Shown piece after piece: positions 6,101 through 33,669 of a DNA stretch of 64,000 nt. The DNA is from Candidatus Poribacteria bacterium. Lineage in GTDB: Bacteria > Poribacteria > WGA-4E > WGA-3G. The DNA lies in contig JAPPBX010000063.1 in assembly GCA_026702755.1 (NCBI GenBank), positions 1-64,000 on the forward strand. The letters run 5' to 3'. The notes beneath the pieces were generated by a model that was not told the origin of the DNA, made no database searches, and saw only the letters and a program-made list of their open reading frames with translations. The translations under genes and the position numbers were made by a program. Every line of letters begins with the position of its first letter. The stretch's first letter is position 1.

Positions 6101-9000
6101 ATTCACGCCAAAATAAGCACGATAAAGCAGTTGACATCTGGAGCGCGTTACTCGAAGCGGACCCAGAGAATACGAAGTATCAGGACGGACTTGTTGATAC
6201 CTACCGAGATGCCGACAAAACCGATGAGGCACTTGAACTCGCGCAGCAATACATTGCATCGGATCCGGAAAGTAGTGTTCACCATGTCCGACTTGCTGAG
6301 CTTTACGCTGCTGACGATCAAGTGGATACGGCTATTGACACCTATAAAAAAGCGATTGAACTCGGTACCGGCGATGGAGAGGCATACCTCAAGTTGGCGC
6401 AGCTTTATCTCCGTAAAGATGACCTTGACGCGGCAGAAAAAGCGTTTGCGGATGCCATTCAACACACCGGTGAGGAGTGGGAACGACGGAATATTGAACG
6501 GCAGCTCATGGATCTCTACCGCCGTCAAGGTAAGTTGGAGGAGATGCTAAAGCAGGCAGAGGAGGTAGGCACGCTGACGCTTGAGATGCAACAGGAGCGC
6601 GCCCAAGAGTACCGTAACGCTGGCGAATTGGAAAAAGCCGTCACTGCCTACAAGAAAGCATTGGAGATGACCTCCCAAAGATGGGATCGAAGTAACATCG
6701 CTAATGAGCTGCTACAAGTCTACGCGCAACTCGGCGAAAACGACTTGGCAATGGAACTCTATGAAACGCAGTCTCAGTCCCGCTCAACGGGTGTATCAAT
6801 CCACCACGGTCCGTCAGGTATCAAAGTCATGTTCGGTGGAGATGAGGCACGTGAAACCTTGATTAACGCCTATAAGAATCAAGGAAAACTTGAAGCGTTG
6901 ACGGACATCTTTGAGGGTAAGCTTGAAGCGGATGCGGATAATCCAGCACTGCTTGAGATGATCGCTGAAATTTATCGGAATGCCGACAATCATGAAAAGA
7001 CGGCGGAAGCCTATCAGGCACTCTGTAAAGCGCAGCCCAGCAATGTCCGCGGTTTTTACTATGCTGCTGCCGCTCTCTATAAGACGAACCAACCTGAGTT
7101 GGCAAAAGAATTGATGGACCAAGGGGAAGTCGCGCTTTCGGCGAACAACCGCAGCGGGGATATGTGGTTCCTCGCGGCACTTGCATCTATCTGTCTTGAA
7201 GGGGAAATGTATGACGCTGCCATCAAATTCGTTGAAGATGCGATTGCTGCAAGTTCAAGATTCGGTGGTTTCTCGTCCGGTGTCGGGAATTTATATGGGA
7301 TTCTTGGGAAGAGTTACTTAGGCACGAAACAGTACGAAGAAGCTGCTAATGCCTATCAACAGGTGGTAAACCTCTCCAGACACAATTATGAGCGGGATCG
7401 GGCGGAAGCATCCTTACGCCGGGTACATAGAGAAGGTAACCTTTATGAAAAGAAAATTCCCGAACAGTTGCAGCGGGTTGAGAACAATCCCGACGATCCG
7501 GATGCCCACTTCGAGCTTGCTCAAACCTACGAGTGGAGCGGTAAAGTTGACGAGGCAGTTGCGCAATATGAGAAAGTTGTCGAACTTCAACCCGATAACG
7601 CTGAGTGGCACAAAAAAATCGGCGACCTCACCCGAAAATCGCGTCAGGGAGACGAAGCCGCGCGCTTAGCGAAGGCGGGTGCTGCTTATGAAAAAGCGAT
7701 TGAACTTGAGCCGACTTCATATCAATCCTACAGTTCGTTGGCACAAACGCACGTGAAAGCGGATCGGTTATCCGAGGCGGAGGCGGTATACCGTCGCGCC
7801 TTAGATGCTTCTCTTGAGGATCACGAATATAGTAGTGCCCTCCGAGGCATCTGGAAGCTGTACGCTGATGCGGATCAAGAGGACAAGGGCCTCGCTGTCC
7901 TTGAAGAAGTGAGGTCGGATTTTGACGAAAAAGAGCGCACAAATGCTATGCTACTTGAACTGTTAGGGGATGCCTACAAAGAAGCAGAGGATGCAGAAGA
8001 AGCGGACGCTGTATACGCCGAATGGCTGGCGATTCGACAGAAAGAGGTGAATCGGAATCAACGCGAGTGGGACTATCGTCTGCTTGCTGATCAGCTTCTG
8101 AGAAAGGGCATCATGCCGGAGGTGGCGTTGGAACTCGCCGAACGCGCCTCACAGATGCGGAGTGATTGGAGTTTCGCCTTAACGTTGGCGGATGCTTATG
8201 TCACGAACGACCGGTATGAGGAAGCATTGGAACAATTCAAGCGCGCTATGAACGGTATGAGTCAGAGATACTCAGATACGGGGAGGCGGTTTTGGTCAGG
8301 TGTTGCTCAAGCAGGCAAGAATGCCAAGGACGAAGAGCGTTACGTCGAAATGGTGAAGGAACTGGTAAATCTCCCTTCCAGTAATCCGACGACTCAACTA
8401 CATGCCAATGTAGCATTGGCACAGTTCTATCATGAACGCGATCTCCCTGAGAAGGCGAAAGCGTATATGGATAAAACTGCCTTCATCGCTGAGAATGCGT
8501 GGTGGATCATTGGTACGTTTGACAATGCAGACGGAATCGGTTATAATAAGGCTTACATCCCGGAGACCGAGACGCAGTTTGACACAACTGCGGAATACGA
8601 GGGTGTAGATGAGCAGGTGCGTTGGAAGAAGCAGGCGGATGATACGTTCGATGGATTCATTGATTTTCGACAAATCCTCGACAAAAACGTCAATTGGAGT
8701 ACAGCCTACGCTTGGACGACCGTGAACTCACCCGACGAGCGAAAAGCCCAATTCCATTTCAGCAGCGGTGTTCAGGCGAAACTCTGGTTAAACGGCGAAG
8801 AGGTCTTTACACATAGTGAATCCCATGACTTCGCGATGCATCAGGATACCATTCCGATAACGCTCAAAGCCGGTGAAAACGGTATTCTTGTCAAAGTTTG
8901 TAGTGAGAATACACACGCTTTGGGATTCTATCTACGGCTTACCAATATGGATGGAGAACCCTTTGCGGATTTAAAACTCAGCAGTTCAGAGGAGAATTAA
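187..9000 (+). CDS. Giant exported TPR-repeat protein with C-terminal galactose-binding-like domain
   Basis: This 2937-residue protein begins with a signal peptide (FSVVVCVLYLISCTFYLSS then SFAQ). The rest is almost entirely tetratricopeptide repeats, with recurring A-x-x-x-Y-x-x-A/L and P-x-D/N spacing, so it should be a long solenoid scaffold in the periplasm or on the cell surface. Two non-TPR insertions are visible, a Gly/Pro-rich one near residues 955-1010 and a short one near 2195-2225. The last ~170 residues (from ENAWWIIGTFDN) form a beta-rich domain with a K-L-W-L-N-G-E-E motif, like the accessory domains of glycoside hydrolase family 2. I chose ATG 187 over the upstream in-frame start because AAGGAG lies 8 bases before it and the signal peptide begins there. 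It leads the MoxR/Bat block. The protein partners are unknown. Confidence 0.9.
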   Translation: MFGREKFSVVVCVLYLISCTFYLSSISFAQDEQIIERYKLMLSRNPKEGSTFDRLYQFYLEGTGLDAMVTDYQAEAQAKPDDSNVQLILGHIYKRLGKDLETVAAYQRAVELAPNDYYAHFALGQMYATLRRHEEAIGALTKAAELSEETQAASPEELMDVYKALGRAYFSRDRVDEAIAAWGKIPELDPENIFSRIELADLFREQELYDQAIAQHEAIIQLKTEDPYRICLSRREIGNIHEAKGDYEDAIQSYDTAMALTAPGNWLRKDLQHRIIGIYAADGNWEGLIAHYQQKLEDTPNDPELIGLLAAAYIENHQLDEGITTYQKAAELAPTDAGIRLNLITALRSAEKFEDAATAYESLSEQQPDDFGIYRELGELYLQLEDESKARATYQRMLDRDPDNAGTHLILAEIYAGNDWIDDAIAAYQKAISVDLNNLDYIEFFGEFYFRQGNRQKTVETWNQLVAGDKATAENYDRLAKLLDAKDFRTEAIAASREAVTLMPDAYRYREALAQRLTETKNYDEALAEYAEAEKLAPNEFFAEQMADQQIEIYRRQGTLVGKIEALEAELNKQEIAPADAFTQQKQLAKMYLKLGNITYAIEVLLKTKALQPDDILINRWLAEVYTRQGLRDEADAIYAHLIEVDSANAREYYANIARAHLAIMDFDTATDAAKQAVAHSPRNPEGHQMLALIAKQLGNYETAVDSLKQAIRLRPEATDIRSELAEVYKISGNPRQAIEQYWRCWELSESVNDKLAFVKPLSEIYYDLGRRGELEEKLKQMSQTNTFGVGPVVALAELYQMEGDLPSARFQLARALDQERENSDLLAQLVKVSLDLGDTQEALTYQQRLAKAQPDPIHQQRLGELLFDVGREQEAIQAWTKLLHAKNQPLEAEIRLATLLIRHGLLDEAISVLDRAAEKITGTDTHIALYQFGAALVQMNEFDRAQPHFQRILDMPEPPKSTTQNVTASRSGWGPPGINIRKFDLPQQLIWDIQGQPFGGSGGQRWIPKSFEEAQAGALVQLTTIAQQQRKLTELIEQFEAEADANPKNVQNLETLVQIYILTDNTDKTKETIDRLLAVSPNDPLYRSLRLSRSMRQDIDYETLKKYLDEITGLTPEARLWYIAQYAGDFYRRGSKADAEKLAAELETAEITDLGTGSMLVSTLAQMNRTDAAERILAQLPIPALPTGPQTLTMGRPSPIQQQWSQYRGIYQSLVSAYVRAEQTDKAVALLWTFFERTKPYTASARRVSNIARASHSYSGYSPLQSSYPSPTTYYDQGRLQYLQQVFSQLWIANQQDVLYAKLQAELDGAKGRERIYPGLALSYCYWWEGQRDKSEEILSALQKELPDDLTLKLNTVFVLVQTGQHTEVLDLLEELAAADPRNRHQYYNLTLQLAAHTGDTVAVRELVTKVLNSPIGVRELHQFSQKLQQSGLTQYAIAVAKKAAVLAMSQRDPNFLIDLGRHLEDLGRGKDAARIAERALRFANQRDRYGQTLYSWDFQQASQMVGRSKAIREREPQLVAAVQNDPDSFQARVKLATFYESTTQLKKASDAFEAALELRPKDNMTRQRYAQMLQRSGQAKEAVTQYIVLLKDNPNAMGYNYWEVMETFFQASKVDELVSLAKEMIVPSVGRNFGNDFARSVARECMDNNRAKAAIELYEKIIEVQPDQTYTYNDLASAYAAVGEPEKAIQFLREKLDHLDKKLTQDSYAQVQIVTKLTELHKTSGGIETLVTEYEAKLAEKPEDPALLYLVASMKIAAGDLEGSKTFVDRLLDDDAVLVNSRWLNSLADAYRTASDRDRERLLLETAIAKMNPGDTWGLSESYQKLGTVYAREDEKQKAQDAFRKMGTLRLLQGRGFYEKEQIANTYMQHEMFDDAEVLFNEIINDFSTQQWTREQAQRQLAEIKRRRDGPTTTTRTPEEVPKFNVGMQRTLAQQHARSGQVKKAIDIYEQIAKVMPEDLESQAQLARLYSRQNKHDKAVDIWSALLEADPENTKYQDGLVDTYRDADKTDEALELAQQYIASDPESSVHHVRLAELYAADDQVDTAIDTYKKAIELGTGDGEAYLKLAQLYLRKDDLDAAEKAFADAIQHTGEEWERRNIERQLMDLYRRQGKLEEMLKQAEEVGTLTLEMQQERAQEYRNAGELEKAVTAYKKALEMTSQRWDRSNIANELLQVYAQLGENDLAMELYETQSQSRSTGVSIHHGPSGIKVMFGGDEARETLINAYKNQGKLEALTDIFEGKLEADADNPALLEMIAEIYRNADNHEKTAEAYQALCKAQPSNVRGFYYAAAALYKTNQPELAKELMDQGEVALSANNRSGDMWFLAALASICLEGEMYDAAIKFVEDAIAASSRFGGFSSGVGNLYGILGKSYLGTKQYEEAANAYQQVVNLSRHNYERDRAEASLRRVHREGNLYEKKIPEQLQRVENNPDDPDAHFELAQTYEWSGKVDEAVAQYEKVVELQPDNAEWHKKIGDLTRKSRQGDEAARLAKAGAAYEKAIELEPTSYQSYSSLAQTHVKADRLSEAEAVYRRALDASLEDHEYSSALRGIWKLYADADQEDKGLAVLEEVRSDFDEKERTNAMLLELLGDAYKEAEDAEEADAVYAEWLAIRQKEVNRNQREWDYRLLADQLLRKGIMPEVALELAERASQMRSDWSFALTLADAYVTNDRYEEALEQFKRAMNGMSQRYSDTGRRFWSGVAQAGKNAKDEERYVEMVKELVNLPSSNPTTQLHANVALAQFYHERDLPEKAKAYMDKTAFIAENAWWIIGTFDNADGIGYNKAYIPETETQFDTTAEYEGVDEQVRWKKQADDTFDGFIDFRQILDKNVNWSTAYAWTTVNSPDERKAQFHFSSGVQAKLWLNGEEVFTHSESHDFAMHQDTIPITLKAGENGILVKVCSENTHALGFYLRLTNMDGEPFADLKLSSSEEN

Positions 9001-9069
9001 CTGGTAGTAGTAAATAATTCTGGGTTTGTAGTGGCGCAATTCACTGCTTTCCCTAAGGCAGGTAGTCTT

Positions 9070-9312
9070 GTAGGTTGGGTTGAGCGGAACTCAAAAGCAG
9101 GATGTGGTGTTACAAATACGCGTGAAGTTTGATAGGTGGTCATATCCACTTAACAACGCAGCGAAACCCAACTTCATACCGCCAGAATCTGGGAAATTTT
9201 GCAACAAAGGCGTTGGGTTTCACTCAGTTTCTGTTTGATGTAATGTGTATCGATGGATTTCATTCTCTTTAACTTTTCGGAGATTTGATGGAATCCGTTC
9301 AACCCAACCTAC
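9070..9312. repeat. GTAGGTTGGG-type inverted-repeat element, copy A
   Basis: The left end GTAGGTTGGGTTGAGCGG (9070-9087) and right end CCGTTCAACCCAACCTAC (9295-9312) are inverted repeats with one mismatch. The inner segment from about 9207 (AAGGCGTTGGGTTTCACT...) is closely repeated at 62487-62597. A degraded relative lies at 24407-24515. The element fills most of the 414-base gap between the TPR gene and the next gene. No gene was seen in it. Confidence 0.75.
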
Positions 9313-9414
9313 GCTGCTAAGGAGACTAAACTTCTGTAGGGATTTAAGTTATAGATGCGGTTTACAACTGCGCTCAAAGAACAGACATACAAAAAGTAAA
9401 GAAGGAGAAGCCTC

Positions 9415-10899
9415 ATGGACGAAAAATTAATTCTCGAAAAAATTCGGCACGTCCGTCACCGTCTGAACATTCAACGGTATTTTCAGACCTTCGCGACGTT
9501 CCTCTTCTACGGATTTTTGGCGTGTGTTCCGTTAGTTATTGTTGACAGCGTCACGTCCTTTAACGTTCCACCCCTCGTTTTTCTTTGGGTGGTGCTCGGT
9601 ATTGCTGTGAGTGCCTTTGCGGTTCGCCTCATTCGCCCTGTGAGCCTCTACGAGACGGCGCGGAGAATTGACACAGATGCTTCCCTCAAGGACCGTGTCA
9701 TAAGCGGCTTGGAACAAATTCAGCAGCGGATTGATGAACCCTTGACGGCTCTGCAACTTCAGGATACCTCTAACAGGTTAAAAGCAGTACCCGTGAAGCA
9801 GGTCGCCCGCTACGTTGTCCCGCGCGAGACGAAATTCATTGTGCTCATCGCTGCTTTCCTCGTTACTTTTTCATTTGTTGAATTTTTCGCTCCCTCAGCA
9901 ACTTCAACGGAGATTGACTTCTCACCGCAAATCGCAGCCGAAGCAGACACGCTGTTGAAACGGATTGAGGAAGTGAAGAAGGAGGCGGAACGGGACGAGG
10001 ATACGGAGCTTGAGGAGCTCTTGGAAGAGATTGAGAAAAGAGCATTGGAATTGAAAAAACCGCAGATCGCTCCGAAAGAGGCACTTGCCAGAATGACTGA
10101 GTTGAGCGCGCTTTTGAAGACGAAGATTGATCCGCTCAAGATGGCACAGCAGCAAGAACTCATGAAGGGGTTAGGGCAACAGTTCATCGGTAATCCCTAC
10201 CTCGGCGAATTCGGACACCAGTTGAAACGCGGCGATTATCAACAAGCAGCAACGAAACTTGACGACGTAACCAAAGATTTGCCAAAGTCCGATAAGGAGA
10301 AACGTCAAAATCTTGCCGATGCGCTCAAACGGGGTGGGAAACACCTCGAAGGTAGCGATCTCGATGGACTTGGAAGCGAGCTGTCAGGAGCAGGCGAAGG
10401 TTTGGATGGTGACAATATCGAAGGGGCAAGAGTTCGGCTCCGCGCCTCAAGCAAAAAGATTCGGGATCTCGCCCTCCTTAAAAATAGAAATGTGCGGTTA
10501 GCGGAACTACTTTCCGAATGTGAGGCTTGTAAGGCAGGTATCGCTGGGGCTTGTAGTGCCGCTGGAATTAATAAGGCTACGGGATTGGCAAAGGCACTGA
10601 GCGTCAGTCCGAGCAATGGGGTAGGCAACACAACATCGGCGAGTCAACTCGGTCAAGTGACATCTCTTGATTCTGTCTTGAATCTTGAACAGATTACGGG
10701 TGTCCAAGGAGAGGGTGCTTCGACCGTCCAAACCTCTAAGGCATCTGCAGAAGGACAACAATCCGCTGTGAGTTATAAAGAGGCGTACACGAAGTATCAG
10801 AAGCTTTCTGAGGATGTCCTCACCCAAGAACAGATTCCGTTGGGTTATAAGTTTTACGTGAAACGCTACTTTGAATCCATTAAGCCGAGTAGTAAATAG
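9415..10899 (+). CDS. Membrane-anchored coiled-coil protein of the MoxR/Bat cluster
   Basis: The protein has 494 residues. Two hydrophobic segments (about 24-46 and 51-73) form an N-terminal hairpin and a third lies at about 140-160. A strongly charged Glu/Lys coiled-coil follows (about 175-225), then a long helical and low-complexity extracytoplasmic part, and a C-terminal motif ending in IPLGYKFYVKRYFESI. This arrangement is like the large membrane proteins (DUF4175-like) found beside MoxR/DUF58/BatA genes, but I could not assign a family with certainty. GAAGGAGA lies about 7 bases upstream of the ATG. The downstream neighbour is the MoxR ATPase gene, separated by a heptamer-repeat region. 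Confidence 0.75.
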   Translation: MDEKLILEKIRHVRHRLNIQRYFQTFATFLFYGFLACVPLVIVDSVTSFNVPPLVFLWVVLGIAVSAFAVRLIRPVSLYETARRIDTDASLKDRVISGLEQIQQRIDEPLTALQLQDTSNRLKAVPVKQVARYVVPRETKFIVLIAAFLVTFSFVEFFAPSATSTEIDFSPQIAAEADTLLKRIEEVKKEAERDEDTELEELLEEIEKRALELKKPQIAPKEALARMTELSALLKTKIDPLKMAQQQELMKGLGQQFIGNPYLGEFGHQLKRGDYQQAATKLDDVTKDLPKSDKEKRQNLADALKRGGKHLEGSDLDGLGSELSGAGEGLDGDNIEGARVRLRASSKKIRDLALLKNRNVRLAELLSECEACKAGIAGACSAAGINKATGLAKALSVSPSNGVGNTTSASQLGQVTSLDSVLNLEQITGVQGEGASTVQTSKASAEGQQSAVSYKEAYTKYQKLSEDVLTQEQIPLGYKFYVKRYFESIKPSSK

Positions 10900-28630: not shown

Positions 28631-28759
28631 GTACATTCTTTTTCGATTTTCCTATTTTAATTCTGAAATTTTCCATAAATCTTACATTTTATGCAACCTT
28701 CCTACCCGCAGCACATCTCTTATATATTATGAGAGACAACATGCTTTTGGAGGTGGCAC

Positions 28760-31700
28760 ATGCGAAACAACGACGCTGAATTAATTCAACAAACCTTAAC
28801 AGGCGACCAGCGCGCTTTCGGTACACTTGTACGAAGGTACCAAAAACCGCTCCATGCACTTGTATGGCGGAAAATAGGCGACTTCCACATTGCTGAGGAG
28901 ATCACGCAGGATATTTTTCTTAACGTTTACAAAAAACTACAGACATTGAAAAATCCGAATCGGTTTGCGGGATGGCTTTATGTAATTGCTTCCCGCCGAT
29001 GTATCGCTTGGTTAAAAAAGAAGCGGATTCCAATGAAATCGTTAGATGCGATGCCACCAGAGGAATTGGAAGAGCTGGCTTACGCACAATATCACGCGGA
29101 ACGACAAGACGAGGTCGTGAGTGAACGGCACCGCGAAATTGTCAAACGTCTCCTTCAGAAATTGCCGGAGAGTGAACGCACCGTTGTAACGCTCCACTAT
29201 CTCGGTGACATGTCATGCGAAGACATTAGCAAGTTTTTGGGTGTATCACCGAACACCGTCAAGAGTCGGCTCCATCGCGCTCGCAAGCGATTGAAGAAAG
29301 AGGAACGCATGGTTCGTGACGTTTTGGGCGGTTTCCAGTTATCCGCGTCGTTAACTGAGAATATTCTGAGAGAAGTTGCTCATATCGAACCCACAACACC
29401 AGCGGGGGGTAAGCCGTGGATACCGTGGGCAGTAGCAGCTTCAACGACCATTTTCGTTATACTTTTGATGGGAAGCGGTACACAGTATTTAGCCCGTTTC
29501 CAGCAGCCCTACAGTTTGAATGTTAGATCAGAGACAACCGTTGAACTCGTTGACACGCCTCTTGTTCATGCCTCAAAGAAAAAAATTGATGTCAGAAATC
29601 AATTTGGGAATACTGACGTACCGGGTAGAAATAACAGAAACACTCATCTCGGAGCGGATGCACGCCAAATTGTTGCCGACCAATCGGAGCGATCCGATAC
29701 ATCCATTGTAAAATCGCGGTGGATTCCGATGGGCGGACCAGAAGGCACTTCTGGTGGCAGAGCCGGTTTGTTTGCGACATCCAAGCGAACCCTTTACGCC
29801 GTTGCAGCAAGGGGGATTTACAGGTTGACAGAAAACAAAGATGCCTGGACCCTTATCTGCGAAAGCAGCCCAACCCGTCAGTTTCAGGCACCGATGGCAG
29901 AACATGAAAATATGCTCTATGTTTTAACACCCAATCATCTATTAGCCTCAACCGATGAGGGTGAGACATGGGATACCGTTGGTCCGCGACCAAAGGGACG
30001 TGCTTTTGAGTTGCTCATCACAGACAGAGCATTTTACCTTGTTTTTGAAAAACATATCTTTCGGTCTGACGATGCTGGTAAAAGTTGGATACCGATGATG
30101 CAGGAGTTGCACGCCCAGATTACAAAAAGGAATGCTTCACCTGACATCTCAATTTCGGACGCTGTCGCGCTTGACAACAGTGTATTTGTTGGGACAAACC
30201 AAGGACTTTACCGTGTTACCACCGGCGTTTGGGAGAGGTTGCCTTTCTACGGTCCCCAATTTATTAATTCATTGATCGCTACCGAGGGTAAACTTTATGT
30301 TGTAGCGGGTCCCGATTTTACACAGTCTACAATATTTGAGTATCAAAGCTTAGATTTTTCAGTTGAGATATTAAAGGCGCCGCCGAGAATTTTTCGGTCA
30401 ATCGACCTTGGCGATACTTGGGTCGATATTTCACCGGCGATAGGAAAAAACGAAAGAGGGGAGTTATGGATGGAGATACCGCCAACAGATGACAAGTTCC
30501 GACTCCAAATGTTCAGTGGTCTCCAGTTAGTCGCAGTTGGCGAAAGGCTCGTAGTGATGGGGACACGCGTCTTACTATATTCACAGGATAACGGCGATAC
30601 GTGGACAGACATCGGAAAAGACATCAACATTGGCGAGAATGCGTTGAGTCAGAGCGTTTTCCCAGTTGTCGCGTTGGACGAAAATAACTTTTATACCTCG
30701 GATATTACAGGGATAGCCCGATCAATGGATGCTGGTGTTTCGTGGCACCCCTTTTCCAACGGAATGGTGAACTCTCATATTCAGAGTTTGATTCCCCTTG
30801 AAAACGCGCTCTGTGCACTCACTCCTGAAGGTGTGGTTAAATCAACGGATATCGGAGAATCGTGGACATCCATTGGGATAGATGCTCATGCTATCGTTGT
30901 GAAAAAAGGGAAACTTCAAAAGAAACAGACGGCTCCAGATTTGCTGAGCGATGCCAAAATTGCGAAGGATAAGGGTTCACTTTATGTCAGTAACAGTACA
31001 GCCGATAGCGTCGGTTTTTATCGCCTTTCTACTGATGGAGGTGTACTGATGTCCGTTCAAGGAATTCCGGCTTTTGTTGAGGATACACTGCAGGTTGAAT
31101 GGCAGAAAAAAATTAATAATGCGCCTGGCGATCGTGGATTAAATCGCAAGCAAAAAGCGGATAGGCCCCGTATCATTGAAGAATATCTGACGAACGGTGG
31201 TTTTACAATTACCGACGAAACCGTCTTTATGGAATTCCGACACCAACTTTTCAGATGGCGAAAAGGTGAAGCCCAATGGTTCAATACGGGTATCATAGAT
31301 ACCACCGAACGTGCTGCCGGTGCAGATGCATCCAAAGGTCTCACGCTCGCGGCTTCACAGAACGTCGTCTATGCTGGTAAACGGGATGGATCCCTATTTC
31401 AATCGCTTGACAGCGGAAAGAATTGGAAAGAGATTACCGCAAATTTACCTTTTGTTTTCACATATTTTGAAGAGATAGTTTTTGCTGGTTCCACCGTTTA
31501 TGTCGTAACAGATCAAGGTGTTATGAACTCTCATGACGGTGTCAATTGGAACGCACTCACCGATACCAAAGGAGACCGAATTCAGATGACTCGGATAGCG
31601 GTAGATGGTGATACGGTCTACGGTGTGTGCAGCCAAGGCGTTTATCGCATGGACACCGGAACAGATACATGGATTCAGATGGCATCCGAGATTCCATACA

Positions 31701-31795
31701 AGATAACGGCTTTCGCCGTTGACCGCGGTATCTTCTACATCGGTACACGACGCCGCGGTGTACTCCGTCTGCATCTTGACCAATCCAACAATTAA
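28760..31795 (+). CDS. ECF sigma factor fused to a membrane helix and a Ycf48/BNR-like beta-propeller
   Basis: This 1011-residue protein is a fusion. Residues 1-~95 are sigma70 region 2 (G-D-Q-R-A-F-G-T-L-V-R-R-Y ... A-E-E-I-T-Q-D-I-F-L-N-V-Y-K-K-L). Residues ~130-185 are region 4 with a helix-turn-helix (M-S-C-E-D-I-S-K-F-L-G-V-S-P-N-T-V-K-S-R-L-H-R-A-R-K). One transmembrane helix follows at about 219-243. From about residue 315 on there are many repeats of the type S-x-D-x-G-x-x-W, as in Ycf48/sialidase-like propellers, which would lie outside the membrane. GGAGG lies 7 bases before the ATG. No separate anti-sigma gene is adjacent. GCAACC (28693-28698) and TATATT (28721-28726) upstream may belong to an autoregulated promoter. 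Sigma activity while membrane-tethered is inference. Confidence 0.88.
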   Translation: MRNNDAELIQQTLTGDQRAFGTLVRRYQKPLHALVWRKIGDFHIAEEITQDIFLNVYKKLQTLKNPNRFAGWLYVIASRRCIAWLKKKRIPMKSLDAMPPEELEELAYAQYHAERQDEVVSERHREIVKRLLQKLPESERTVVTLHYLGDMSCEDISKFLGVSPNTVKSRLHRARKRLKKEERMVRDVLGGFQLSASLTENILREVAHIEPTTPAGGKPWIPWAVAASTTIFVILLMGSGTQYLARFQQPYSLNVRSETTVELVDTPLVHASKKKIDVRNQFGNTDVPGRNNRNTHLGADARQIVADQSERSDTSIVKSRWIPMGGPEGTSGGRAGLFATSKRTLYAVAARGIYRLTENKDAWTLICESSPTRQFQAPMAEHENMLYVLTPNHLLASTDEGETWDTVGPRPKGRAFELLITDRAFYLVFEKHIFRSDDAGKSWIPMMQELHAQITKRNASPDISISDAVALDNSVFVGTNQGLYRVTTGVWERLPFYGPQFINSLIATEGKLYVVAGPDFTQSTIFEYQSLDFSVEILKAPPRIFRSIDLGDTWVDISPAIGKNERGELWMEIPPTDDKFRLQMFSGLQLVAVGERLVVMGTRVLLYSQDNGDTWTDIGKDINIGENALSQSVFPVVALDENNFYTSDITGIARSMDAGVSWHPFSNGMVNSHIQSLIPLENALCALTPEGVVKSTDIGESWTSIGIDAHAIVVKKGKLQKKQTAPDLLSDAKIAKDKGSLYVSNSTADSVGFYRLSTDGGVLMSVQGIPAFVEDTLQVEWQKKINNAPGDRGLNRKQKADRPRIIEEYLTNGGFTITDETVFMEFRHQLFRWRKGEAQWFNTGIIDTTERAAGADASKGLTLAASQNVVYAGKRDGSLFQSLDSGKNWKEITANLPFVFTYFEEIVFAGSTVYVVTDQGVMNSHDGVNWNALTDTKGDRIQMTRIAVDGDTVYGVCSQGVYRMDTGTDTWIQMASEIPYKITAFAVDRGIFYIGTRRRGVLRLHLDQSNN

Positions 31796-31813: not shown

Positions 31814-32701
31814 ATGAAATATGTCAAAGAGACATTTTTGATGATCCTCTTGATGTTACCTTTAACGCTCTCTGCGGTGCCCCATGAACCTTCCCCTGCT
31901 GGAGGGGGTTGGCTTGAACTGAATCCACAGCTGCCGCTCGTGCAAACTGAAAAACCATGGTTTCCTGATTATCCGGGTCCGCTAACGATTGAGGCGTGGA
32001 TATATATAGAAGAACCGCCGAACCTTCAAAGTGCTTTCTCACTTGTTGGACAAACAAGTCGTTTCAATTGGGCAATTCTTGGACATTCCGGGGATAGCAA
32101 TTTTGATGGTGTTCCAGATTCTATTGGAGGCATTCTTACCCAGGAACATAATGGAACTTCAGGTATGGTCACCACACATCTACCAGCTAGGAAATGGGTA
32201 CATTACGTAGCGGTAATTGACAATGGTGTTACTGTAGGAAGCAGCGGTTTTATTACACAAATAAGTCACGGGGAATCTCTGGCAACTGCTAACAACCGAT
32301 TGATCATAGGTGGGGTTCCAGTATTGACTGAAATTGCTTTTCCGAACAAGCAAGAAACGGTTCTTGGGACAGGGGTATATATTGATGAACTACGAATCAG
32401 TTGTGTCCTGCGCTACAAGTTGGGTGAAAATTATACTGTTCCAACCAAGGCGTTTACATCGGATATTGATACACTCGGATTATATCATTTTGATGGTGAA
32501 TCAACAGAACACTACCAGGACGCGTCAGAGCACCGGATTCCGTTAATTCGTAGTAAAGAAAATGCCGAATCCAAAAAGGAAAAACTTGCGGTCGAAGCCC
32601 CCAATAAATTAGCCACTATATGGGGCACCCTGAAATCTGCACGATCGAGGTTGGAGAATTTTTTCCTCGAACTAATGAACCTAATGATCATGATGATCTG
32701 A
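31814..32701 (+). CDS. Secreted LamG-like protein, paralogue 3
   Basis: The 295-residue protein has a signal peptide ending L-T-L-S-A, then a LamG-like domain (P-L-T-I-E-A-W-I-Y-I-E, W-V-H-Y-V-A-V-I-D, Y-I-D-E-L-R-I-S, T-L-G-L-Y-H-F-D-G-E). ACGGAG lies 9-10 bases upstream of the ATG, 18 bases after the sigma-propeller gene. Near the C-terminus, E-A-P-N-K-L-A-T-I-W-G-T-L-K-S matches the tail motif of the other LamG proteins, but here about 19 further residues follow (L-E-N-F-F-L-E-L-M-N-L-M-I-M-M-I), possibly from loss of the original stop. It is paired with the interrupted paralogue downstream. Confidence 0.82.
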   Translation: MKYVKETFLMILLMLPLTLSAVPHEPSPAGGGWLELNPQLPLVQTEKPWFPDYPGPLTIEAWIYIEEPPNLQSAFSLVGQTSRFNWAILGHSGDSNFDGVPDSIGGILTQEHNGTSGMVTTHLPARKWVHYVAVIDNGVTVGSSGFITQISHGESLATANNRLIIGGVPVLTEIAFPNKQETVLGTGVYIDELRISCVLRYKLGENYTVPTKAFTSDIDTLGLYHFDGESTEHYQDASEHRIPLIRSKENAESKKEKLAVEAPNKLATIWGTLKSARSRLENFFLELMNLMIMMI

Positions 32702-32848: not shown

Positions 32849-33622
32849 ATGCAATGTATTAGAAAAATTTTCTTGATGATTATAGGCATTATTTTTACAG
32901 TGCCTTTACCGCTCCTTGCAGCACCGCATGAACCGTCTCCTGCTGGAGGGGGTTGGCTTGAACTGAATCCGGAGCTGCCGCTCGTGCAAACCGAAAAGCC
33001 TTGGTTTCCCGATTATCCCGGTCCACTAACGATTGAAGCGTGGGTATACATAGACAGACCACCGAGCGTTCAGGATATCATATCACTGGAGGCTGGATCT
33101 CGTGCTGCCTTTTCCATAGCGGGTCAGACAGACCGGTTCACCTGTGCCATCGTTGGTGATGGATACAAAGCAAGTCCCGCTATCGTTACAAGGGGTGTTG
33201 GGGCTGGATCCGGGAAGATATGAGGGACACTACCTACCAGGCGGTGGGTCTATTACGTGGCAATAATTGACGGCGGTTCTACTGTCGGGTGCGGTGGAGC
33301 TATCTCTGGACTAACACCCGGGAGCCGTCTCGCATCTGTGAATGAACCTCTCCTTATCGGTGGTGTTCCAGTTTTAAGGGAAAGTGCGCTGAAAGCGGTG
33401 CCTGCCTCTGGGATGTATATTGACGAACTGAGAATCAGTCGTGTTGTGCGTTATGACGTAGGTGCGTATAATACACCCATTGGCGCATTTACTTCAGACG
33501 ATGATACACTCGGTTTGTACCATTTTGATGGAGCGTCAACCGAACGTTATGAGGATGCCTCACCGCACAAGATTCCATTAATCCGCGTTAAGAAGCAGAC
33601 CAAATCCAGGTCAAATCAGTAA
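32849..33622 (+). pseudogene. LamG-like protein, paralogue 4, interrupted by an in-frame TGA
   Basis: The frame from ATG 32849 (signal peptide, P-H-E-P-S-P-A-G-G-G-W-L-E-L-N-P, P-L-T-I-E-A-W-V-Y-I-D) meets TGA at 33221-33223. It then continues without any frame change (W-V-Y-Y-V-A-I-I-D-G-G, Y-I-D-E-L-R-I-S-R-V-V-R, D-T-L-G-L-Y-H-F-D-G-A) to 33622. The intact neighbour at 31814 aligns on both sides, with Thr at the position of the stop, so this is a single nonsense mutation or a sequence error. GAAGGAAG precedes the ATG. Its C-terminus lacks the K-L-x-x-x-W-G-x-L-K tail. Confidence 0.75.
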
Positions 33623-33669
33623 ATCCCTCTAATTTCCACCTCCTCTATTCTCGGAAACCCATTTCAAAC

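Follow-up and report, generated by a model that had tools for sequence, protein, structure and literature searches.

Transcription is normally controlled across the bacterial membrane by two or more proteins, either a kinase and a regulator or a sigma factor and an anti-sigma factor. Single-chain sigma receptors are already known, however, from ECF52, IutY and the planctomycete ECF–WD40 proteins. In ECF52 (SCO4117), ECF48 and ECF53, an ECF sigma factor, a transmembrane part and an outside domain share one chain (PMC5826349, PMC8999054). The outside domain of ECF52, a group described as exclusive to Actinobacteria, is carbohydrate-binding, and positive autoregulation and proteolytic release have been proposed (PMC5826349, PMC8999054). 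In IutY of Pseudomonas putida (ECF243), the sigma domain is freed from a single chain by Prc and RseP, and in variants with about 50 periplasmic residues, Prc is no longer needed (PMC5411451). Finally, Planctomycetes (Gemmataceae) have lineage-expanded ECF factors joined to WD40 repeats (PMC8567305).

The window analysed here, by which we mean the whole stretch of 64,000 nucleotides from a member of Candidatus Poribacteria, carries a gene (P0001, 28760..31795, + strand) for a fusion of a sigma factor, a transmembrane (TM) helix and a double propeller. Poribacteria are abundant, uncultured sponge symbionts, and our literature search found no paper describing sigma fusions in them.

P0001 shares with ECF52, ECF48 and ECF53 the C-terminal fusion with a TM helix, but the zinc-finger anti-sigma domain that these groups carry between sigma factor and membrane is absent, a linker of about 37 residues taking its place, and the ectodomain of ECF52 differs from the double propeller of P0001. 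Like IutY, P0001 unites a sigma factor, a TM helix and a periplasmic part in a single chain. In IutY, however, the periplasmic part serves as the anti-sigma domain in a cell-surface-signalling system and has an outer-membrane siderophore receptor as its partner, whereas in P0001 this part is a double propeller for which no such partner was identified. The planctomycete proteins are alike by architecture, with an ECF factor joined to propeller repeats, and WD40 ectodomains also occur in some paralogues in the present genome (for example, L088); in P0001, GH74/BNR-like propellers stand in place of the WD40 repeats that follow the planctomycete sigma factor. In the Bacteroides hybrid two-component systems BT4663 and BT4673, a large propeller-based periplasmic sensor is likewise connected to transcription within one chain. 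Foldseek matches their structures to the P0001 ectodomain at E values of about 1e-16 to 1e-20, with poor overall superposition (TM-score of about 0.2), and their output consists of kinase and response-regulator domains, neither of which was found in P0001 by Pfam search, rather than of a sigma factor. As variants on these known designs, the double-propeller sensor, the cassette on which sensors are swapped and the scale are new, and the common outside motif is notable.

Domain architecture of the fusion protein

P0001 is encoded by a single uninterrupted open reading frame (ORF) of 1011 amino acids. Residues 1–181 (28760..29302, +) form an ECF sigma factor, with Pfam matches to Sigma70_r2 at residues 23–89 (E = 4e-12) and to Sigma70_r4_2 at residues 126–178 (E = 1e-18), a score above the cut-off of the NCBIfam sigma70-ECF superfamily, and the ECF (group IV sigma-70) layout of regions 2 and 4 without regions 1.1 and 3. 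The closest solved structures to this part are those of SigW and sigma-E. A juxtamembrane linker, predicted to be cytoplasmic (residues 181–217, 29300..29410, +) and containing a short helix (LTENILREV), leads into one TM helix (residues 219–242, 29414..29485, +), which is assigned from hydrophobicity, selection and charge pattern and is the sole hydrophobic helix of the protein, with its peak at residues 221–239. Beyond the helix come a conserved outside juxtamembrane segment with the motif RFQxPYxxxAxSExTxE (residues 243–295, 29486..29644, +), hereafter the FQxPY segment, and an ectodomain of two GH74/BNR-like beta-propellers (residues 320–1011, 29717..31792, +).

Several lines of evidence bear on the fold of the ectodomain. 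Pfam matches C-terminal to the sigma factor are to DUF6242, Sortilin-Vps10 and BNR. In the AlphaFold model of P0001 (mean pLDDT 71.6), the sigma part is helical and the ectodomain mainly beta, with the region of linker and helix poorly defined. The best PDB matches of the ectodomain are GH74 xyloglucanases (Foldseek to 2cn2, E = 7.8e-22), profile searches match it to GH74 chains (for example, 4lgn, E = 5.5e-14), and it also matches Ycf48 (8am5, E = 2.5e-7). Together, the Foldseek and profile matches and the model indicate a GH74-like double beta-propeller. The initial annotation had read the chain as an ECF sigma factor (regions 2 and 4), one TM helix and an outside Ycf48/BNR-like propeller; Pfam, hydrophobicity and the uninterrupted ORF bear out this order of parts, and the BNR and Ycf48 matches agree with the label given to the propeller, which is, however, double and GH74-like. 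GH74 glycoside hydrolases have a pair of catalytic aspartates; across 69 relatives of P0001, D847 is the only strictly invariant acidic residue of the ectodomain.

Conservation, selection and topology

The architecture was also sought in related genomes, where the whole P0001 frame is intact in 6 same-genus orthologues from Candidatus Poribacteria assemblies (72–85% identity), one of them on a single-contig chromosome, and further relatives occur across the phylum. A search of the homologues for a stop or frame break at residues 190–220 found no conserved one; the orthologues keep the frame. Median dN/dS among the P0001 orthologues is 0.068 in the sigma part, 0.193 in the linker, 0.076 in the TM helix and 0.17–0.20 in the propeller. 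By these values, the join is translated and under selection, and purifying selection on the TM helix is, by this estimate, about as strong as on the sigma domain.

These results bear on whether an assembly artefact or a frame error fused two genes. Most of the genomes used are metagenome assemblies, and some paralogues contain in-frame stops, both of which would be in keeping with an artefact. However, the uninterrupted architecture also occurs in independently assembled orthologues, single-contig chromosomes included, and purifying selection runs through the sigma–propeller join. As it stands, this explanation is refuted, and we give it a negligible probability.

Across 292 cassettes, each comprising a sigma factor, linker, helix and outside segment, the mean net charge is +1.0 before the helix and −2.7 after it, and the charge is higher before than after in 97%. 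This drop in charge across the helix supports an N-inside/C-outside topology of P0001, in which the sigma part lies inside and the propeller outside. The proposal that a transcription factor and a would-be sensor stand on opposite sides of the membrane in one chain thus gains support, and there is no sign in P0001 of an inverted topology with the propeller in the cytoplasm.

A family of sigma fusions in Poribacteria

The architecture of P0001 is one of dozens in its genome. Sigma region 2 has 81 matches in the genome, more than half of them within open frames of 400–1352 residues; 36 sigma–linker–helix cassettes from this genome were aligned, so that the membrane fusions number at least 36, and about 14 further sigma fusions have no helix. 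Full-length relatives of P0001 are found in every searched genome of the genus, and the cassette profile is matched by 85 of the 85 Poribacterial genomes searched. Within the family to which the window belongs, the profile matches are strong and many per genome (at most 27 being scored); in several distant Poribacterial families, the scores are weaker and at the sigma level only. Sigma–TM fusions with diverged outside segments occur in further families belonging to the order, in one more member of the class and in one distant family.

The ectodomains of these fusions vary. In this genome, 17 are GH74/BNR-like propellers, 6 are WD40 and 2 are Kelch, with PD40, Reg_prop, GHL15 and others as single cases. 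On a tree of the cassettes, 11 changes are required to account for the BNR label, and well-supported branches force at least 5 of them; a Kelch protein and a BNR protein, for example, are supported sisters. The sensor has been swapped repeatedly on one chassis, and one sigma–linker–helix–FQxPY cassette has come to be combined with many ectodomains.

Beyond the sigma factor, the most conserved stretch of the cassette is RFQxPYxxxAxSExTxE, directly outside the membrane. In the 292 cassettes, which have differing ectodomains, Q248, P250 and Y251 are kept at 99–100%, and the mean entropy is 1.10 bits in the outside FQxPY segment, compared with 1.78 in the helix and 0.90–1.15 in sigma regions 2 and 4. 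The segment is present with different ectodomains and missing from the fusions without a TM helix. Conservation equal to that of the sigma factor, while the ectodomains vary, fits a shared processing or readout site, and on the simplest reading the FQxPY segment would be a common site of processing or of contact with a partner.

On the other side of the membrane, linkers of the P0001 type contain the conserved short helix and a K-P-x-x-P-W motif. Pfam search of P0001 found no zinc-finger anti-sigma domain in the linker or elsewhere, and no ZAS-type anti-sigma gene lies beside any fusion, all 7 of the 7 zf-HC2 matches of the genome being directly behind stand-alone sigma genes. The earlier remark that the usual separate anti-sigma factor is missing therefore holds for the ZAS type (zf-HC2), at which the search of the genome was directed and beyond which other types would be missed.

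Promoter motifs

Upstream of P0001, a −35-like element, TGCAACC (28692..28698, +), is followed after 15 nt by a −10-like element, CATCTCT (28714..28720, +), and then by a ribosome binding site recognized by its sequence, GGAGG (28749..28753, +). The −35-like element is kept in position and sequence in 6 of 6 orthologues, the −10-like element reads CRTCTCT or CCTCTCT in them, and the combination TGCAACC-N14-18-CRTCTC is almost confined to P0001 orthologues. In the wider family, an ECF-type motif, TGCAACC...CGTCA (score of at least 11 of 14), lies upstream of 54% of the 310 fusion genes in the fetched loci, compared with 4.4% of shuffled upstreams. Spacings of 15–17 nt are favoured, and the consensus of the fusion genes is AATtATGCAACCtTTt.....cTAA.t.gCGTCAcTa. 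Promoters read by ECF sigma factors have a −35 element of AAC type and a −10 element of CGTC type, and it is motifs of this sort that precede the fusion genes. About half of the fusions have no clear promoter motif of ECF type, and the −10 element of P0001 is unlike that of the majority; the majority pattern finds no match in the window because P0001 has the variant with a 15-nt spacer and CRTCTC.

A strict form of the pattern has 26 matches in this genome compared with 5 in the control, and 353 matches in 20 genomes compared with 103 in the reversed control. Of the 26, about half stand in front of sigma fusions, and others precede STAS-like proteins, an ABC ATPase, a MoxR-type ATPase and a Reg_prop-like protein, as named by sequence inspection. 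The divergent sigma–FtsZ subgroup has a different conserved upstream motif, TTTTAAACC...CTCTT. That the type of promoter motif tracks the type of sigma factor suggests that each fusion sigma may read its own promoter.

The small STAS-like proteins behind the family promoter motif (L171 and L186) look by eye to be of the anti-sigma antagonist type. The promoter of the ABC ATPase (L193) has near-identical copies in several other genomes, and ABC-2-like permeases follow one sigma fusion (L092:2983-7796).

Downstream genes

A gene for an exported LamG protein (31814..32701, +) starts 18 nt after the fusion and has a matching extra copy in one close relative (L265); a second exported LamG gene (32849..33625, +) is the one that adjoins the fusion in orthologous loci. 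The linkage of fusion and LamG is kept in these loci, only one of which departs from a gap of about 20 nt. Given this close downstream position, in the orthologous loci as well as in the window, LamG is probably part of the operon of the fusion, in agreement with the initial annotation, which had named the LamG proteins as possible targets. In a quarter of cases across the family, the fusion is followed by another sigma fusion. Downstream genes of other kinds encode an N-terminal hydrophobic segment in 78% of cases, or 86% if the distance is at most 60 nt, compared with a background of 42%; by this measure, fusions tend to stand before diverse proteins predicted to be exported.

The second LamG gene contains an in-frame TGA (33221-33223). 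This TGA persists in at least 9 orthologous copies, and the protein is conserved both before and after it; in homologues elsewhere, the position is taken by Arg, Thr, Met, Val or other residues, but not by Cys. The genome has a tRNA-Sec gene (78 bits), and a search for a selenocysteine hairpin after the TGA gave nothing better than shuffled sequence (z = −0.8). Selenocysteine, readthrough and restart at GTG 33257 are candidate readings.

Models of activation

We propose, with a probability of roughly one half, that P0001 is a one-piece transmembrane receptor in which cleavage triggered by the ectodomain frees the ECF sigma factor to drive its own operon. The outside double propeller would serve to bind a ligand, for which a glycan or a surface protein is the likeliest candidate, and binding would make the conserved FQxPY segment accessible to a site-1 protease. 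The helix would then be cut by an RseP-like site-2 protease, and the freed sigma domain would bind core RNA polymerase and transcribe, from its own promoter, the operon with the exported LamG genes. The sequences themselves show the architecture and how it is conserved, the existence of a family, the exchange of ectodomains and the promoter motifs upstream of fusion genes; ligand binding, autoregulation and proteolytic release are steps that we infer. Proteolytic activation is plausible from the example of IutY and from the one full-length RseP-like protease gene in the genome, and the conserved outside segment of the P0001 type, at about 50 residues, resembles the periplasmic remainder of the IutY variants mentioned above. 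Counting against the model, neither a cleavage site nor a site-1 protease nor a ligand was found for P0001. Three further points weigh against it: with no recognizable anti-sigma domain, there is no evident cause for the tethered sigma factor to be inactive; the ECF-type motif is not clear in about half of the fusions and deviates in its −10 element in P0001; and a different sigma factor might act at the P0001 promoter instead. Cleavage is also no universal rule, because two paralogues (L074) and other sigma fusions have no TM helix.

The sigma factor could instead act while still anchored, with the ligand shifting the conformation of the linker and the sigma factor recruiting polymerase at the membrane; one-component membrane regulators of the ToxR/CadC type act without cleavage. 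Besides the failure to find a protease site, it is in favour of such tethered activity that linker 181–217 is the sole cytoplasmic element other than the sigma factor and has a conserved helix (pLDDT of about 85 in a model of the module), and that the fusions without a TM helix show other ways of controlling a sigma factor. We nevertheless regard it as unlikely: a shared site of processing or partner contact is the easier reading of the FQxPY conservation next to the membrane on its outer side, and IutY, the one single-chain sigma receptor described in a review as experimentally characterized for this mechanism, is cut (PMC8999054, PMC5411451). The linker might also be a minimal anti-sigma element in cis that holds the sigma factor closed, as in CnrY–CnrH, until the ectodomain lifts the inhibition, whether by cleavage or not, and this would be compatible with release by proteolysis. 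The module model best matches anti-sigma-bound conformations (SigW–RsiW, 5wur; CnrH–CnrY, 4cxf, TM-score 0.70 on the target). Fusions from other Poribacterial families show a related linker motif, and the linker resembles, by eye and over short stretches of few sequences, the segments that precede the helix in the genome's own anti-sigma factors. However, the domain arrangement of the module model is uncertain (pTM 0.59), and the linker motif is retained in some soluble fusions that have no membrane switch. The mean-field coupling analysis of contacts between linker helix and sigma factor is too weak to tell either way, with helix-to-sigma pairs faring no better than implausible TM-to-sigma pairs in the 292 cassettes, which amount to only 90 effective sequences. 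We consider an inhibitory linker possible, if somewhat doubtful.

A very improbable reading is that the sigma factor and the propeller become separate products, through an internal start or constitutive cleavage, and that the fusion has no signalling role. Soluble sigma fusions (FtsZ, DnaN, WD40) do have, at the join, an internal ATG with a ribosome-binding-like purine stretch in front of it. By contrast, start codons are not conserved at the P0001-type join, M184 included, selection on the TM helix is strong, and the outside part lacks its own signal peptide.

Returning to a cleaved one-piece receptor as the preferred reading, the protease and the target operons can be tested directly through the shared FQxPY segment and the readable promoters. 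A large part of the outside sensing of the whole lineage seems to be built on single proteins, with dozens of examples per genome and visible exchange of sensors, and the fusion family provides a map of what Poribacteria may sense in the sponge host. Other bacteria use histidine kinases as a general output module. Tentatively, and at somewhat less than even odds, Poribacteria may use the ECF sigma factor as such a module, with dozens of exchangeable outside sensors, one shared processing machinery in the membrane, few related promoters and no anti-sigma factor, and with copies of the housekeeping proteins DnaN, FtsZ and DnaE, joined to the sigma module, as possible internal sensors.

Sigma fusions lacking the membrane helix

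In two tandem paralogues (L074:4871-7624 and 7701-10544, +), the end of the linker, the TM helix and the outside segment are absent; a BNR double propeller directly follows the sigma factor and would be cytoplasmic. Another fusion (L068:4454-8497, −) combines an ECF sigma factor, an FtsZ domain and most of DNA polymerase III alpha in one frame of 1347 amino acids, and such frames, with lengths of 1349–1758 amino acids, occur in 11 of the 14 genomes of the genus (orthologues L326–L331). An ECF sigma factor fused to the DnaN sliding clamp (L064:4568-6289, +; orthologues L332–L337) is likewise found in 11 of the 14 genomes searched, and relatives also carry separate dnaN-like frames of about 375 amino acids. 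Further soluble sigma fusions (L055, L063, L057 and L062) include an M61 peptidase-like protein, an AhpC/TlpA-like thioredoxin with a repeat region and one C-terminus without a Pfam match. An ATG that follows a ribosome-binding-like purine stretch lies at the join of soluble fusions to FtsZ, WD40, DnaN and others (L064:10964-12184, +; L073:3327-5945, −; L090:5627-6832, −; and L068), a pattern that would be expected if a stop codon had been lost and the downstream protein were still produced on its own as well.
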